Origin: Thiotrichaceae bacterium
GTDB taxonomy: Bacteria; Pseudomonadota; Gammaproteobacteria; Thiotrichales; Thiotrichaceae
Assembly (NCBI GenBank): GCA_026989145.1
Contig: JALSJU010000124.1
Span: 1 to 40,423 of the forward strand
Direction: 5' to 3'
Length of the DNA: 40,423 bases
How positions within the stretch are numbered: the first letter of the stretch is position 1; every line of letters begins with the position of its first letter. Under the pieces are notes generated by a model. The model worked only from the letters and a program-made list of their open reading frames with translations. It was not told the origin of the DNA and searched no databases. A program made the translations under genes and the position numbers. Below are positions 16,408-25,242 of this stretch, one piece after another.

Positions 16408-17706
16408 ATGATAACAAAACAAACAGAATTGCTTGGAATTGGAAACTGGTATGAGAAGCTGGTAGATGGTAAGACTAATTTTTTAGATAAAGTTTATGAC
16501 CTACTCTCCGATTCTCATCATGCATCAGTTGTAAACAATAATGAGCAGCATATGAGCCACAATAAAAAAATAATCCTGCACGTTGGTGGTGAAGATGTGC
16601 GAATGCGTATACCGATGTTGAATATACTTTCGTCACGTAACTTTAATGTTGGTGCTATTGGCTGTGAGGACTATGAGGCCTTTGAAAGAACGGACATCCC
16701 ATATTTCAATTATACATTACATCGTTGGCTTACACCCTTTGCCGATGAAGCCAGTAAAAAAGAACTCAGCAAAATTTTTAACAATGTTGAGCCTGATCTA
16801 ATCCATCTGTTTGACACGAAACCTGGTGTTTTAACACCTAAGGTTGCCAAGAAATCGGGTGTAAAGTGTGTCGTTCGAACCGTTACAGGTATGGGTTATA
16901 TTTTTTCATCAAACTCATTAATTGCACAGTTATTGAAGCCTTTTTATCGTTTGTCCCAGAAGCGTGCTATTGCATATACCGATGTTGTTATTTTTCAAAA
17001 TGAAGATGATAAAGCGTATTTTGAGAAGTATAAATTAGTACCGCCAGAAAAAAGTACGTTGGTGCGTAGTTCGGGTTTAAATGTCGAAGCCTTTTTAGAA
17101 AATAAGCCTAGTAAAAAAGAAACGCTTAAAATCCGTACTCAACTGAAGGTTAGTGAAACTGATGTTGTCGTGACAATGGTGGCGCGCTTGGTAAAGGATA
17201 AAGGTGTTCTAGAATTCTTAGAAACTTCTAAGAAGCTATCGCAATACTCGAATATAAAGTTTGTACTCGTTGGGCCTTTAGGCTCTGAGGGTAAACAAGC
17301 CATCGATAAAAAAACTATTGAATACTATTCACAATATGTTAACTATATCGGTTCGGTGAGTAACGTAGTGAAAGTATTAGCAGCCTCCGATATGTTTGTA
17401 TTGCCGACCTACTATCGAGAAGGGTTACCTAGAATACTTCTTGAAGCAGGAGCATTAGGATTGCCTTTAATTACAACTGATATGCCGGGTTGCCGAGATG
17501 TAGTTAGAGATGGCTGGAATGGTTTTTTAGTGCCAACACGTGATTCAAATGCACTGGCAAATGCCGTTAAAAAGTTATCCGATAATAAAGAACTGCGTGA
17601 AAAAATGGGGGCAAAAAATCCTATTTTTATTAAAAATAATTTTAGCTTATCTCAAGTTTCTGAAGCTTACATGGAGATTTATAATAAATTACTTAATAAT
17701 TTGTAA
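16408..17706 (+). CDS. Glycosyltransferase family 4
   Basis: A retaining GT-B glycosyltransferase (432 aa) likely to add a hexose to a lipid-linked oligosaccharide at the inner face of the membrane. The N-terminal domain begins near residue 53 (KKIILHVGG) after an unusual 50-residue extension. The C-terminal donor domain shows VTMVARLVKDKGVLEFLE, then FVLPTYYREGLPRILLEAG near residues 331-349 with the E-x7-E motif, and GLPLITTDMPGCRDVV. AGGA precedes the ATG. It is on the opposite strand from the main polysaccharide operon and separated from it by the GTPase genes, but is likely part of the same pathway (inference). Confidence 0.85.
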   Translation: MITKQTELLGIGNWYEKLVDGKTNFLDKVYDLLSDSHHASVVNNNEQHMSHNKKIILHVGGEDVRMRIPMLNILSSRNFNVGAIGCEDYEAFERTDIPYFNYTLHRWLTPFADEASKKELSKIFNNVEPDLIHLFDTKPGVLTPKVAKKSGVKCVVRTVTGMGYIFSSNSLIAQLLKPFYRLSQKRAIAYTDVVIFQNEDDKAYFEKYKLVPPEKSTLVRSSGLNVEAFLENKPSKKETLKIRTQLKVSETDVVVTMVARLVKDKGVLEFLETSKKLSQYSNIKFVLVGPLGSEGKQAIDKKTIEYYSQYVNYIGSVSNVVKVLAASDMFVLPTYYREGLPRILLEAGALGLPLITTDMPGCRDVVRDGWNGFLVPTRDSNALANAVKKLSDNKELREKMGAKNPIFIKNNFSLSQVSEAYMEIYNKLLNNL

Positions 17707-17819: not shown

Positions 17820-19310
17820 ATGAAACAAAAGAGTTCTAAATTCCGTAAACTAATTGCACTCGCAATTATAATCATCACAATGCTGTTATTACTTTTTGTT
17901 TTTTCAGCAACAAGAAGTGCTTTAGATGTTTGGGATAGACTTCAGCAGCTACCCGAAGCACTGTTCTATACCTATTCCGCATTGATCATTACTGGTTTAT
18001 TCTTCAGTTTTTACCTCGTTTATAAACTTTTGCGTCCAACTTCCTCATTGTTTAGGAAGCAAGAGCATGAGGAAGTGTCCCAAGAAGCCGTACTAAAAGA
18101 AATTACTCATGCTGAAGAGTCAGGCATGGAAACGAGTGCACTACGTCGGGAAATAGAGCATTTAGAAGAGCGTAAAGCGACGGGTAAAGTGTATGTTGCA
18201 TTATTTGGTGATGTCAGTACAGGGAAGTCATCTATCATTAAAGCATTGCTTCCAGATGCAAAAGTAGAGGTTAATGTGCAGGGTGGTTCTACCCAAAATA
18301 TTCATCAATACACATGGCAAAGTACCTCAGGGGATGAGTTGGTGTTGACTGATCTCCCCGGTAGGAGTGAAGCTGAGGGTTCTCTTGATTTAATGGCGCA
18401 AGAAGAAGCCATTCGTGCCCAAATAGTCGTGTATGTGACGGATTCTGATTTATCACGAAGTCAATTTAATGATGTATTAGAGCTACTAAGCTTTGGTAAG
18501 CCTTTAATCATTGCCGTCAATAAAAGTGATCGTTTTAACGATGAAGAAAAAGATTTGATTCAAGCACGGTTTATGGAGCACTTTACTAATAATGATAGTC
18601 CGTCTGCAATGAGGATAGTTTTTGTTCAATCAGGAGGGGAAGAAGAGATTTTGAAAATCTATCCTGATGGGCGAGAAGAAAAAACTCAACGCGAGAGAAA
18701 AGCAGATGTTGCAGCGTTAGCTGAATCCTTGCAAACCGAAATTGATACGCAAACAGAACTTTTAGAATCTTTACGCGACGCTAGTGTGTTTGTCTTAGTC
18801 AAACAAAAATTAGACATAGCCAAAGACCAGTTTCGACAAGAGAAAGCTGAATTAATTATTAAAAGCTCAACCCGTAAAGCTGTATTAGGGGCCTTAGCTG
18901 CGGTAAGTCCGGGCTCAGACTTAGTTATTCAAGGTGTTTTAGGTACTCAAATGGTCAAAGGGTTATGTGCTTTATATGATGTCCCTGTACGCCAGTTAGA
19001 TATTGATAAATTATTAGATTTCAGTGGTAGCCAGATGAAGAAAAGTGCCCCGTTATTACTCGCAGTGGCAGGCAATGGCATGAAGGCATTTCCGGGATTA
19101 GGCACTGTTACAGGTGGCTTAACACACGCTGTTGCTTATGGTTTAATTTTTGATGCGCTAGGCCATGCGGTTAATAAAACCTTGCAACAACGTGGTAAGC
19201 TACAAGCAGCGCCAGCTGCGATTACCTTTAAGGAGATGTTAAGTGAAGATCTTGAATCACGTGCAAAGTTATTTGCCAAACTGGTTTTCGACAAAAGAAG
19301 ATCGGAATGA
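17820..19310 (+). CDS. Membrane-anchored Era-like GTPase with DUF697-type C-terminus
   Basis: 496 aa. Two N-terminal membrane segments (about residues 9-29 and 48-70) and a short charged coiled region precede a GTPase domain: G1 GDVSTGKS (130-137), G3 DLPG (178-181) and G4 NKSD (234-237). The C-terminal part (about 345-480) has Ala/Gly-rich amphipathic helices like the DUF697/YcjF family, with AVLGALAAVSPGSDLVIQGVLG. Target unknown; membrane-associated nucleotide switch is the safe reading. The start has no Shine-Dalgarno sequence but abuts a perfect hairpin. Its last 68 bases overlap the next GTPase gene in another frame, so the pair is translationally linked. Confidence 0.82.
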   Translation: MKQKSSKFRKLIALAIIIITMLLLLFVFSATRSALDVWDRLQQLPEALFYTYSALIITGLFFSFYLVYKLLRPTSSLFRKQEHEEVSQEAVLKEITHAEESGMETSALRREIEHLEERKATGKVYVALFGDVSTGKSSIIKALLPDAKVEVNVQGGSTQNIHQYTWQSTSGDELVLTDLPGRSEAEGSLDLMAQEEAIRAQIVVYVTDSDLSRSQFNDVLELLSFGKPLIIAVNKSDRFNDEEKDLIQARFMEHFTNNDSPSAMRIVFVQSGGEEEILKIYPDGREEKTQRERKADVAALAESLQTEIDTQTELLESLRDASVFVLVKQKLDIAKDQFRQEKAELIIKSSTRKAVLGALAAVSPGSDLVIQGVLGTQMVKGLCALYDVPVRQLDIDKLLDFSGSQMKKSAPLLLAVAGNGMKAFPGLGTVTGGLTHAVAYGLIFDALGHAVNKTLQQRGKLQAAPAAITFKEMLSEDLESRAKLFAKLVFDKRRSE

Positions 19311-20664
19311 TGCTGTTGAGCAAATGGATAACAGTGAAACTTTAACTAACGGTTCTTTAACAATGGGCAAAGGCGATTCAAATATTGATTTAGCGAGGGA
19401 GTCTTTAACCGCACTTCTTGATGATAGTCGTGTCCCTGATTCTGTGCGTAATGTTTTGCAAGATGACTATAAGCAGTTACGCAGCATGTTGGATAAATTG
19501 GAAAATGGCCATTTGCATATTGCCGTGTTTGGTCGTGTCAGTGTAGGAAAGTCCTCGGTACTCAATGCCTTATTAGGCAAACAAGCGTTTAGTGTGAGTA
19601 TTTTGCATGGTGAAACCAAAACAGAAGGTATAGAAGAGTGGCAAGAGGTGGATGCAGGTGGTGTTTATCTTATTGATACCCCAGGTATTAATGAAATAGA
19701 TGGTGAAGAAAGAGAGCGCTTAGCGCACGAAGTTGCAAACCGTTCTGATTTATTGCTATTTGTGGTTGATAGCGACTTAACTGATGTCGAGCTGAGTGCT
19801 TTAAAAACGGTTGCTGCCACAAATAGGCCGATAATCTTAGTGGTTAACAAGGCTGATCAATACAATGAGAAAGAAATTCTTCAGCTACGAACTATTATGA
19901 GAAAACGCGTAACGAAGCTTATTGCTCCTGAAAATATAGTTTTCACAGCTGCATCACCCAGCCAACAAACTGTAATTATGATCGATGGAGCAGGAAATGA
20001 AAACGAAACCGTTCGACAACGTCCCGTTGATATTCTGAATTTAAAGTCACGACTCTGGGATATTATCGAGGCAGAAGGTAAAACGTTGTCAGCATTAAAT
20101 GCTTCATTGTTTGCGGGTAGTTTGAGTGAGCAGCTTGGTGAAAAGTTACTCGAAACGCGTAAGCAGGTCGGTGAAGATACGATTCATATGTACTGCGTAG
20201 GAAAAGGTGTTGCGGTTGCGCTTAACCCAATACCCGTAGCAGACTTACTCGCTGCAGCGGCAATTGATGTGAGCATGGTTATTCATTTATCTAAAATTTA
20301 CGGTTTGCCGATGAGTAAGTCAGAAGCAGGGGAGTTAATTAAAACTATTGCAGCTCAAATGTTAGTGCTTTATGCAACCTTTTGGGCGATTCATTTAGCT
20401 TCTTCAGCATTAAAAATTGGTACTGCAGGCATTTCTACAGTTGTAACAGGTGTTGCTCAAGGTGCTGTAGCTTGGTATAGCACACTGGTAGTAGGTAGAG
20501 TTGCAGAAGATTATTTAGCAAAAGGAAAATCATGGGGGGATACGGGGCCTAAGCTTACCGTGCAAAATATTTTGGATAGTTTAGACAGAGACTCTGTCAT
20601 GAGTGAGGCCAAAGAAGAAATTGTAGAATATTTAAAATCATCAAAAAAGCCGAAAAAGGTCTAG
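19243..20664 (+). CDS. Second Era-like GTPase with DUF697-type C-terminus
   Basis: 473 aa. G1 GRVSVGKS (97-104), G3 DTPG (145-148) and G4 NKAD (202-205) define an Era/Obg-like GTPase domain, followed by a hydrophobic C-terminal half (about 310-435) with ALNPIPVADLLAAAAIDVSM, typical of DUF697 proteins. Unlike its neighbour it lacks N-terminal membrane segments. The GTG start at 19243 is strongly supported by AAGGAGAT at 19230-19237; it lies inside the preceding gene, overlapping it by 68 bases. Paralogous to that gene, and the two may form a heteromeric GTPase pair (inference). Cellular role unknown. Confidence 0.82.
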   Translation: MKILNHVQSYLPNWFSTKEDRNDAVEQMDNSETLTNGSLTMGKGDSNIDLARESLTALLDDSRVPDSVRNVLQDDYKQLRSMLDKLENGHLHIAVFGRVSVGKSSVLNALLGKQAFSVSILHGETKTEGIEEWQEVDAGGVYLIDTPGINEIDGEERERLAHEVANRSDLLLFVVDSDLTDVELSALKTVAATNRPIILVVNKADQYNEKEILQLRTIMRKRVTKLIAPENIVFTAASPSQQTVIMIDGAGNENETVRQRPVDILNLKSRLWDIIEAEGKTLSALNASLFAGSLSEQLGEKLLETRKQVGEDTIHMYCVGKGVAVALNPIPVADLLAAAAIDVSMVIHLSKIYGLPMSKSEAGELIKTIAAQMLVLYATFWAIHLASSALKIGTAGISTVVTGVAQGAVAWYSTLVVGRVAEDYLAKGKSWGDTGPKLTVQNILDSLDRDSVMSEAKEEIVEYLKSSKKPKKV

Positions 20665-20733: not shown

Positions 20734-21408
20734 ATGAATATTTTAGCTTTTGGACCGAATGGCAGTGGTAAGGGCACGCAGGGCGCAATTGTAAAAGAGA
20801 AATATGGTTTAGATCATATTGAATCAGGCGCAATTTTTAGAGAGCATATCAAAGGTGGTACTGAACTGGGCATGAAAGCAAAAGCCTATATTGATAGTGG
20901 CGACCTTGTTCCAGATGAGATTACTATACCAATGGTATTAGAAACCCTGAGTAACTCGAAAGATAAAGGTTGGTTGCTTGATGGTTTCCCAAGATCATTG
21001 GCACAGGCAGAAGCACTTGATAAAGCGCTGAAGGAGTCAGGTATGGATCTTGATTACATAATTGAAATTAAACTTGATCGAGAAATTGCTAAGCAACGCA
21101 TCATGGGTCGCCGACTCTGTGCGAATGATAATAATCATCCGAATCATATTGCCTTTGATGCGATAAAACCGGTAGAGAAAGATGGTGAGTTAGTTTGTCG
21201 GGTCTGTGGCGGTGAGCTTTCAGCACGCGCAGATGATCAAGACGAAGAAGCGATTAATAAACGCCATAATATTTATTATGATAATACGACAGGTACCATG
21301 GCAGCGGTTAATTACTTTAAAAATGAAGCAGGAGCGAAGATAATTTCAGTGGATGGTTCTAAAGCGATTGGTGATATTTCTGCGGAGATAATGGTTCAAC
21401 TGGCTTAA
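20734..21408 (+). CDS. adk: Adenylate kinase-like nucleoside monophosphate kinase
   Basis: Transfers phosphate between ATP and AMP. P-loop GPNGSGKGT at 7-15, AMP-site residues in SGAIFREHI, the core motif WLLDGFPRSLAQAEAL, and the lid arginines RRLC and SARADDQ. The lid carries Cys129, His135, His138, Cys155 and Cys158, consistent with a zinc-binding lid, though spacing is not the usual CxxC...CxxC. The P-loop begins GPN rather than the GAPGAGKGT of the common enterobacterial enzyme, so this is a divergent Adk type and may be a second copy. AGGAGAA precedes the ATG; 69 bases separate it from the GTPase gene. Confidence 0.85.
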   Translation: MNILAFGPNGSGKGTQGAIVKEKYGLDHIESGAIFREHIKGGTELGMKAKAYIDSGDLVPDEITIPMVLETLSNSKDKGWLLDGFPRSLAQAEALDKALKESGMDLDYIIEIKLDREIAKQRIMGRRLCANDNNHPNHIAFDAIKPVEKDGELVCRVCGGELSARADDQDEEAINKRHNIYYDNTTGTMAAVNYFKNEAGAKIISVDGSKAIGDISAEIMVQLA

Positions 21409-21420
21409 ATCTCGGATTTA

Positions 21421-21736
21421 AATAAAGGGCAGATTCAACACTGAAATGCATAACTTATTAGGCCGCCCTTAAAGCGGTATATTCTTTCATTCTATTGGCA
21501 GGAGTTTTGAACTTCAACTTTTTTCTTGGTCGGTTATTCAGTTGAGATATTACACTAGTCACTTCATTTAACGATATCTTCTTAAAATCCGTACCTTTAG
21601 GCCAATACTGCCTGAGTAAACCATTAGTATTTTCGTTTAAACCCCTCTGCCATGAGCAGTAAGGGTCGGCAAAGTAAACAGGGGCATCCAATGCCTCTGT
21701 AATACTTGCGCTCTCACTCGCGTTTCTATCTATGGA
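21421..21736 (-). mobile_element. IS30-family insertion sequence remnant
   Basis: Left with the last part of a transposase plus what looks like the IS end, ATTCAACACTGAAATGC at 21433-21449. The rest of the element, including the other end and the transposase N-terminus, is gone. It lies between the adk-like gene and the polysaccharide locus and marks past rearrangement at that boundary. Confidence 0.65.
21458..21736 (-). pseudogene. IS30 transposase C-terminal fragment
   Basis: About 92 residues in frame, with the IS30 catalytic-core end: EALDAPVYFADPYCSWQRG, then GLNENTNGLLRQYWPKGTDF and LNNRPRKKLKFKTP. The N-terminal two-thirds (DNA-binding region and first acidic residues) is missing; an in-frame TAA stands at 21737-21739. 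The last acidic residue of the DDE triad would be the Glu in RGLNENTNG. Not a functional transposase. Confidence 0.88.
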
Positions 21737-24159: not shown

Positions 24160-25242
24160 CTAAGCCGACGAAAATCTATTACGAATAAATTTTCTCATGG
24201 GTGTTTCCAAATAATGATAAGAAGTAATTGAAAGCAAAATTAAAAGTAAAAGAAAAATATAGAAATGCTGGGTATCGGATAGTACTAACCTTGGAACTAT
24301 AATTTTGTCGTAAAGACCGTGAATAGGTTTTTGAAGTATGTATAACGAGTAACTTGCCTCGCCTAATAAAATAAGCCAAGGGTGGCTTAATAGTCGTGAA
24401 AATAGCCCTCGGTCTCTAGCTAAAATAATAATAAAAAATAAAAAAGCGGGAGCAAGTAAACCGTTGGTTAATGCGATTTTATAATTTAAAAGGTTTTCGA
24501 TATGCGCTCTACCCCAAATAAGGAGAAAAATAATAGTGAAGGAAAAAATAATCCAGAGTGACAGGTCTCTTTTTGCTGAAGAAGGTGCACTTTTTTTAAA
24601 TAAAATACCGACAACTAAACCTGCAATAAAGGAGTTTAGATGCATTAGTGGATTATAATAGATAAAATCATGTAGTAATGTTTTGGGTGCGTAGAAGCTT
24701 GAGTTAAGGCTTGTTAATAACACCACTTGGGTTATTAACCATATGACAATGCAAAAAATGACTAACGAGCGAATACCAAATTTATAGACCCAAATTAACA
24801 GGAATGGCAAACAAAGGTAAAAGAATGCTTCAACGGAAAGAGACCACCCAGGAGTGTTGAGTGTAATCGGGTAGCTTGGAATCCAAGATTGAAGTAACAA
24901 CAGGTGTAAGGGTAACTGAGCAGGGTTGACTGCAATTACGCTTAGTTTAGCCACGGCAATTAATAAAAGTGCAACAAGGTAAACAGGGTATATTCTGGCA
25001 AAGCGAGCAATCCAATACTTCTTTTTGTTGATTGCGTGTTGTTTGTTTTTATCCGGCTGGTAATAGGCAATTGCCATAATGAAGCCAGATAAAACATAAA
25101 AGTAACCTACTGCAATAGGGCCAGCGGTTATATTTTCAAATAAAAAAGGGATGTTAGCAGGAAATACACTTTGTCCGTAGTGAAAAAAGACTACGGAGAG
25201 TGCTGCAATAAAGCGCGTAAATGTTATTTGATCAAGTTGCAA
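24160..25242 (-). CDS. Acyltransferase 3 family membrane protein
   Basis: 360 aa, about ten membrane helices. The N-terminal LDQITFTRFIAALSVVFFHYG has the conserved Arg and His of the OafA/acyltransferase-3 family, and GYFYVLSGFIMA matches the FFxxSGF motif. These proteins O-acetylate (or acylate) polysaccharides in the membrane. The first in-frame start is TTG at 25242; a TAA lies just upstream in the same frame and the first ATG would remove the catalytic His, so TTG is the likely start although no ribosome binding site is evident. It lies 29 bases after the WcaJ-type gene. Confidence 0.88.
   Translation of the reverse strand: MQLDQITFTRFIAALSVVFFHYGQSVFPANIPFLFENITAGPIAVGYFYVLSGFIMAIAYYQPDKNKQHAINKKKYWIARFARIYPVYLVALLLIAVAKLSVIAVNPAQLPLHLLLLQSWIPSYPITLNTPGWSLSVEAFFYLCLPFLLIWVYKFGIRSLVIFCIVIWLITQVVLLTSLNSSFYAPKTLLHDFIYYNPLMHLNSFIAGLVVGILFKKSAPSSAKRDLSLWIIFSFTIIFLLIWGRAHIENLLNYKIALTNGLLAPAFLFFIIILARDRGLFSRLLSHPWLILLGEASYSLYILQKPIHGLYDKIIVPRLVLSDTQHFYIFLLLLILLSITSYHYLETPMRKFIRNRFSSA

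Follow-up and report, generated by a model that had tools for sequence, protein, structure and literature searches.

In a 40,423-nucleotide (nt) stretch of DNA from a Thiotrichaceae bacterium (assembly GCA_026989145.1, contig JALSJU010000124.1; hereafter the window), two genes for different GTPases, which we call P1 and P2, follow one another on the forward strand and overlap by 68 nt. The shared DNA encodes the end of one protein and the beginning of the other, and both of its frames are under purifying selection. The two genes are paralogues and occur together as a pair. Retention of the overlap across many gammaproteobacteria suggests that the two proteins cooperate at the membrane. We favor, as somewhat more probable than its opposite, a model in which a single ancient GTPase system of the membrane has P1 and P2 as its two subunits, likeliest in a P1-P2 heteromer. 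Table 1 lists the features concerned.

Double coding in the overlap

An earlier note on this DNA, made from the letters alone, had described two overlapping GTPase genes of which the second carries its own AAGGAG ribosome site inside the first. This description proved accurate: the P1 and P2 open reading frames (ORFs) share exactly 68 nt, out of frame, and the AAGGAG site at 19230-19235 lies within P1. We searched the genome of the window and 56 others with both proteins. The 36 genomes of the family yielded 32 assembled pairs; left out were G003 and G034 (no complete pair) and G014 and G016 (not assembled; G and L numbers denote genomes and loci). All 32 pairs show an overlap of 65 to 95 nt with a site resembling a Shine-Dalgarno (SD) sequence and a start codon that is GTG (30 pairs) or ATG (2 pairs), and in each of them the P2 frame lies one base on from the P1 frame (offset 1). 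The overlap is therefore not an accident of annotation. Likewise, 12 named loci overlap by 65 to 95 nt; four come from the family, and two of these are the G029 and G021 contigs.

Both frames leave their mark on the choice of codons. At conserved residues of P1, synonymous codon choice across the overlap and SD site gives a normalized entropy of 0.31, lower than in any other of 176 windows, while the rest of P1 gives 0.83; for P2 the corresponding figures are 0.20 (lowest among 201 windows) and 0.81. These values rest on 10 columns for P1 and 5 for P2. The glutamate codon within the SD site is GAG in all 32 family pairs; at the remaining conserved glutamate columns of P1, GAG accounts for 55 of 252. 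Across the overlap the P2 frame is open in 32 of 32 pairs, whereas among 418 upstream-shifted 22-codon windows read in this frame the best is open in 22 of the 32 genomes, and none reaches 30. When the P1 tail is redrawn with synonymous codons, start, SD site and open frame arise jointly with a probability of 0.003 to 0.10 (five family genomes). Because the family genomes are related these counts are not independent; conservation at the level of the class, and a test in a genus where the pair is split, help in this respect.

The split genus, g76 (G103 and G233), amounts to a natural experiment. Its relocated P2 bears a fossil of the P1 tail, VNG.AL.MFEDNLSEDLEA, which is legible in the old frame and runs before and into the P2 start. 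The P1 copies in turn retain P2-like letters, in G233 up to and just past the P1 stop. In the first 18 codons the relocated P2 copies of G103 and G233 differ at 4 sites, all of which are silent for P2; read in the old P1 frame, the same sites give 2 replacements, 1 silent change and 1 stop. The P2 start codon is GCG in both split P1 copies against GTG in linked relatives, a change that is silent for P1 (AGT to AGC). After separation each copy has thus kept its own frame while the frame of the other gene decays, which argues that the N-terminal peptide of P2 is a real and selected part of that protein. These small counts derive from a single genus. Taken together, the suppression of codon choice and this pattern of decay show the shared DNA to be coding in both frames.

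The P2 N-terminus scores as amphipathic in the seven species tried, with 0.2% to 7% of shuffles equaling it, and one of the seven is G436, where the peptide lies outside any long overlap. As to how P2 is translated, about 22 codons separate its start from the P1 stop further downstream. Translational coupling declines steeply as the distance grows (PMC10666635; this and the other papers are cited from excerpts), so that reinitiation is unlikely as the main entry. P2 is probably initiated from its own SD site.

Table 1. Features of the P1-P2 locus, in positions of the window (aa, amino acids).
Feature	Position	Strand	Remarks
P1, 496-aa GTPase	17820..19310	+	ATG start; G domain, two membrane helices at the N-terminus and a helical region like a degenerate DUF697
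P1 membrane helix 1, residues 11-29	17850..17906	+	hydropathy peak 3.11; helix in predicted model
P1 membrane helix 2, residues 53-71	17976..18032	+	hydropathy peak 1.75; helix in predicted model
P1 G1/P-loop GDVSTGKSS, residues 130-138	18207..18233	+	G130 and S133-S138 invariant (28 sequences)
AAGGAG ribosome site of P2, inside P1	19230..19235	+	seven bases before GTG
Out-of-frame overlap, 68 nt, P1 C-terminus and P2 N-terminus	19243..19310	+	evidence from conservation, codon choice, frame openness and split genus
P2, 473-aa GTPase	19243..20664	+	GTG start; G domain plus DUF697
P2 N-terminal peptide MKILNHVQSYLPNWFS, amphipathic, in overlap	19243..19290	+	hydrophobic moment 0.51, matched by 0.2% of shuffles; family-conserved
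P2 G1/P-loop GRVSVGKSS, residues 97-105	19531..19557	+	invariant except position 100 (28 sequences)

Occurrence of the pair across genomes

A draw of 274 genomes from the class contains P2 in 37 and P1 in 37 genomes, and both in 36 (E <= 1e-40). The two genomes with a single match, G272 and G187, hold partial matches. Hence 36 of the 38 genomes with either gene possess both (Fisher p about 1e-42, kinship ignored). Among these 36, 31 genomes from 21 families show an overlap of 59 to 95 nt, and each of the overlaps counted exceeds 60 nt except that of G063 (59 nt). Five genomes fall outside the count: in G073 the two genes sit on separate contigs, in G091 the P2 frame is interrupted, in G103 and G233 the pair is split, and G298 lacks an overlap; start codons in this draw were picked from motif, place and SD. 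Every overlap length leaves 2 on division by 3, so there is a single phase, the same as is usual for long overlaps (PMC3887535, PMC10666635). The pair is therefore inherited jointly and its overlap conserved. We observed furthermore that the P2 frame of G091 (L225) is broken near the middle, which may reflect a pseudogene or a sequencing error.

In a draw of 299 genomes from the phylum, P2 is detected in 11 at E <= 1e-25. Eight of these come from other classes, with nine loci, and in all nine P1 adjoins P2 upstream. With starts chosen by the analyst, the genes overlap here by 4 nt (five loci), 8 nt or 20 nt, or are separated by an 18-nt spacer (two loci of one genome). This last genome, G480, carries two copies of the pair (L235 and L242). 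Since these loci are adjacent with little or no overlap, the pairing reaches beyond the long overlap. The P2 tree requires the overlap to have switched 2 times between its long and short forms, with the outgroup sitting on very long branches. The earlier note had named single and unlinked homologues as the outcome that would speak against it. Within Pseudomonadota such an arrangement appears in just one genus, though six cyanobacterial loci examined look single, without a P1 partner.

Two paralogous GTPases and their proposed joint function

According to Pfam, P1 and P2 each contain an MMR_HSR1 G domain. The DUF697 domain (PF05128) is strong in P2 (111.3 bits against a gathering cut-off of 27.7) and partial in P1, where 15.5 bits falls below the same cut-off. 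The designation of both proteins as DUF697-type in the earlier note thus holds for P2, while for P1 the match is sub-threshold. Kinship of the two rests on protein searches with both and on a joint tree, rather than on this score. In that tree (unrooted, quick method) a branch with support 100 separates 18 P1 rows from 18 P2 and 6 cyanobacterial rows, which bears out the proposed paralogy. The motifs that we take to be G1 (GDVSTGKSS in P1, GRVSVGKSS in P2), G3 (DLPG and DTPG) and G4 (NKxD) are retained in all 28 aligned P1 and 28 aligned P2 sequences. Neither protein looks like a dead GTPase, and with all three motifs complete it is probable that both bind and hydrolyze GTP. Judging by sequence, P1 and P2 are ancient paralogues with their GTPase motifs intact.

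The proteins had also been described as one with two membrane helices and one without. Two clear hydrophobic helices are indeed present at the N-terminus of P1. The N-terminus of P2 has no hydrophobic helix, but 'without' is uncertain for the whole protein, given moderately hydrophobic stretches at residues 323-341, 365-383 and 400-418, inside DUF697.

Two different paralogues that are inherited together (36 of 38 genomes; branch support 100) are what a heteromeric GTPase pair should look like. In the model we favor, P1 would be anchored in the inner membrane through its two-helix hairpin. P2 would be cytosolic or peripheral, attached by its amphipathic N-terminal helix and perhaps also by the DUF697 helices, and the G domains or helical parts of both would meet in a GTP-dependent manner. 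Initiated inside P1 on its own ribosome site, P2 would be made from one message beside membrane-bound P1, and assembly during translation would then be favored. Heteromeric-complex subunits are overrepresented among gene pairs spaced by -8 to +10 nt, 4.5-fold in E. coli and 8.1-fold in H. volcanii (PMC10666635). A more specific proposal is that the stretch of 59 to 95 nt, encoding a functional GTPase C-terminus and the membrane-targeting N-terminus of its partner, is kept for co-translational assembly of the heteromer; we regard this as tentative, with a chance somewhat short of even.

A number of observations weigh against the heteromer model. The published enrichment covers short spacings and not overlaps of 68 nt (PMC10666635), and RNA structure around the P2 start is not unusual (z -0.52). 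The predicted protein models are weak, with moderate to low confidence (pLDDT, the predicted local distance difference test, is 71.9 for P1 and 65.5 for P2), and their match to solved structures concerns mainly the G domain (VIA-align). Linkage and overlap can also be lost. In genus g76 P1 and P2 are on different contigs, and codons 19-20 of the relocated P2 copies hold 4 more differences, all of them replacements for P2. About 2 kb separates P1 and P2 in G449, a member of the class, where the intervening genes resemble YceI and cytochrome b561 by eye. A Rhodanobacter locus (L074), with P1 in pieces, is probably separated in the same way, and in G298 (L187/L214) the genes are linked without overlap, with the P2 start after the overlap position. 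The G298 pair also seems to have no conserved P2 N-terminal peptide.

It might be argued that the two GTPases are linked functionally without any contact, working either in parallel or successively within a single pathway, and that the overlap serves only to secure common expression. Co-occurrence and linkage alone do not demonstrate contact, and separate loci are tolerated in one genus. Nonetheless, common transcription would be achievable through ordinary operon spacing, without a doubly coding stretch of 59 to 95 nt, and another paralogous pair of GTPases, DLP1/DLP2 of Campylobacter (DLP, dynamin-like protein), does form a heteromer (PMC6104087). We consider this alternative doubtful, though it deserves to be taken seriously.

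Another possibility, compatible with the heteromer model, is a dynamin-type machine for membrane remodeling like the paired DLPs or LeoABC. Foldseek ranks IRG GTPases first for P1, and BDLP together with mitofusins for P2 (E about 1e-7); its listing also includes LeoA, IniA and the DLP pair. LeoA models of PADLOC match P1 (E 3.6e-16) and P2 (2.2e-19), a defense signal at the level of these models only, which covers P1 residues 88-344 and the G-domain part of P2. P2 also exceeds the Dynamin_N cut-off (51.3 bits against 27), and the pairing is similar to that of DLP genes. However, P1 stays below that cut-off (23.1 bits), and the query-normalized TM-scores reach just 0.21 to 0.34 among the matches listed (50 per model). 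VIA-align covers mostly the G domain, and here Era (P1: Z 19.1, root-mean-square deviation (rmsd) 2.9, 164 aligned) and EngB/YsxC (P2: Z 17.6, rmsd 3.0, 168 aligned) do as well as any; BDLP extends over 343 residues of P2, at an rmsd of 27.8. Going by the predicted models, a dynamin-like nature is possible, while such a remodeling machine appears unlikely to us.

A role in inorganic-carbon uptake, as proposed for the cyanobacterial relative slr1306, seems rather improbable. The title of a 2008 paper calls slr1306 a putative component of the CO2-concentrating mechanism. Both proteins match the slr1306 family model (NF049994), though far below its cut-off of 490 (157.3 bits for P2, 77.2 for P1). 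RuBisCO is somewhat commoner in genomes that hold the genes (26 of 38, compared with 116 of the 236 remaining genomes; p 0.035 by hand tally with kinship ignored), yet 12 of the 38 holders are without a RuBisCO match, and carbon-uptake genes were not recognized among the recurring neighbor clusters looked at. The association with carbon concentration is weak.

Finally, it is highly improbable that the overlap is an annotation artifact in which P2 truly starts later and the upstream frame is open by accident: an in-frame ATG does exist 13 bases after the P1 stop, the relative G298 starts P2 beyond the overlap, and in the class draw a clear SD is missing from G050 and a GTG at the expected position from G157, but the start is co-located in 31 of 36 class genomes, all 32 family pairs keep SD-like site, start codon, frame and peptide, that frame stays open in no other window tested, and the peptide of the first 18 codons came unchanged through 4 silent changes once P2 had left P1.

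Neighboring genes and known systems

The adenylate kinase gene (adk) that follows at 20734-21408 is of the accessory type (NF011102 / PRK14529, above cut-off), and the genome of the window holds a second adk (G000:C86). The suggestion that P1, P2 and adk form one cassette did not stand up. An orthologue (64% identity or more) occurs in 16 of the 36 family genomes and adjoins the pair in 3 of 13 judgeable ones (G000, G004 and G006), being located elsewhere in ten; its placement could not be judged in G001, G003 and G034. Across 40 neighborhoods (42 loci were given, and two without a P2 ORF were not counted) adk follows the pair in 3. We therefore reject adk as part of the system, as it mostly lies elsewhere in genomes with the orthologue. 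A promoter and terminator scan found about as many sites as in shuffles, and none of its terminator-like sites lies between P2 and adk. The commonest neighbor is a DUF3465 protein with a hydrophobic N-terminus, directly after P2 in 12 of the 40 neighborhoods; the domain was tested in one member (L160 7951-8439).

More widely, positions 13104-33797 of the window form a polysaccharide block between a NuoA-like gene and a tRNA-Leu that follows a SecG-like gene. It comprises glycosyltransferases, an acyltransferase, a chain-length/kinase protein and flippase- and polymerase-like proteins, assigned mostly by eye and by Pfam for 16408-17703 and 24163-25242. Just downstream of adk, a 77-aa ORF on the minus strand (21458-21691) resembles the remnant of an IS30-type transposase and has no Pfam match.

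If kept in the way proposed above, the P1-P2 overlap would be a long-lived, doubly coding co-directional overlap in a length class where, as far as the excerpt goes, a systematic study found no real case (PMC2478687). It passes several independent tests, the natural split experiment included. It allows one to ask, in a concrete case, why long overlaps persist and whether initiation inside a neighbor's gene serves co-translational assembly. It would also mark a little-studied membrane system of two GTPases, present in 36 of 274 class-draw genomes. By the listings of the literature found on DUF697, slr1306, YcjF/YcjX, sll0804, gene overlaps and dynamin pairs, the P1-P2 pair has not been described.

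Among known systems, the slr1306 family of cyanobacterial DUF697 GTPases shares with P1 and P2 the combination of G domain and DUF697, and cyanobacterial homologues group with P2 in the joint tree. The six cyanobacterial loci examined have one gene each, unlike the pair described here. In E. coli, YcjX-YcjF places a DUF697 membrane protein beside a GTPase. P2 weakly matches TIGR01620 (E 0.0033), and in contrast to YcjX-YcjF a G domain is present in both P1 and P2.

Campylobacter DLP1/DLP2, like P1-P2, are two different GTPases encoded side by side, and they form a 2:2 tetramer (PMC6104087). P1-P2 differs in the N-terminal membrane hairpin of P1 and in its long coding overlap, and any dynamin stalk in P1 or P2 is at most putative. 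For the overlap itself the closest precedent is holD-rimI of Enterobacteria, which is co-directional with conserved ends of both proteins and, at up to 56 bp, is the longest real case named in the excerpt of a study that judged long co-directional overlaps to be misannotations (PMC2478687). We claim an exception to that study and not a record, because later catalogues of overlapping genes were covered only by targeted literature searches. The holD-rimI overlap measures 32 to 56 bp and joins unrelated genes within Enterobacteria, whereas that of P1-P2 measures 59 to 95 nt, spans 21 families and joins paralogues.
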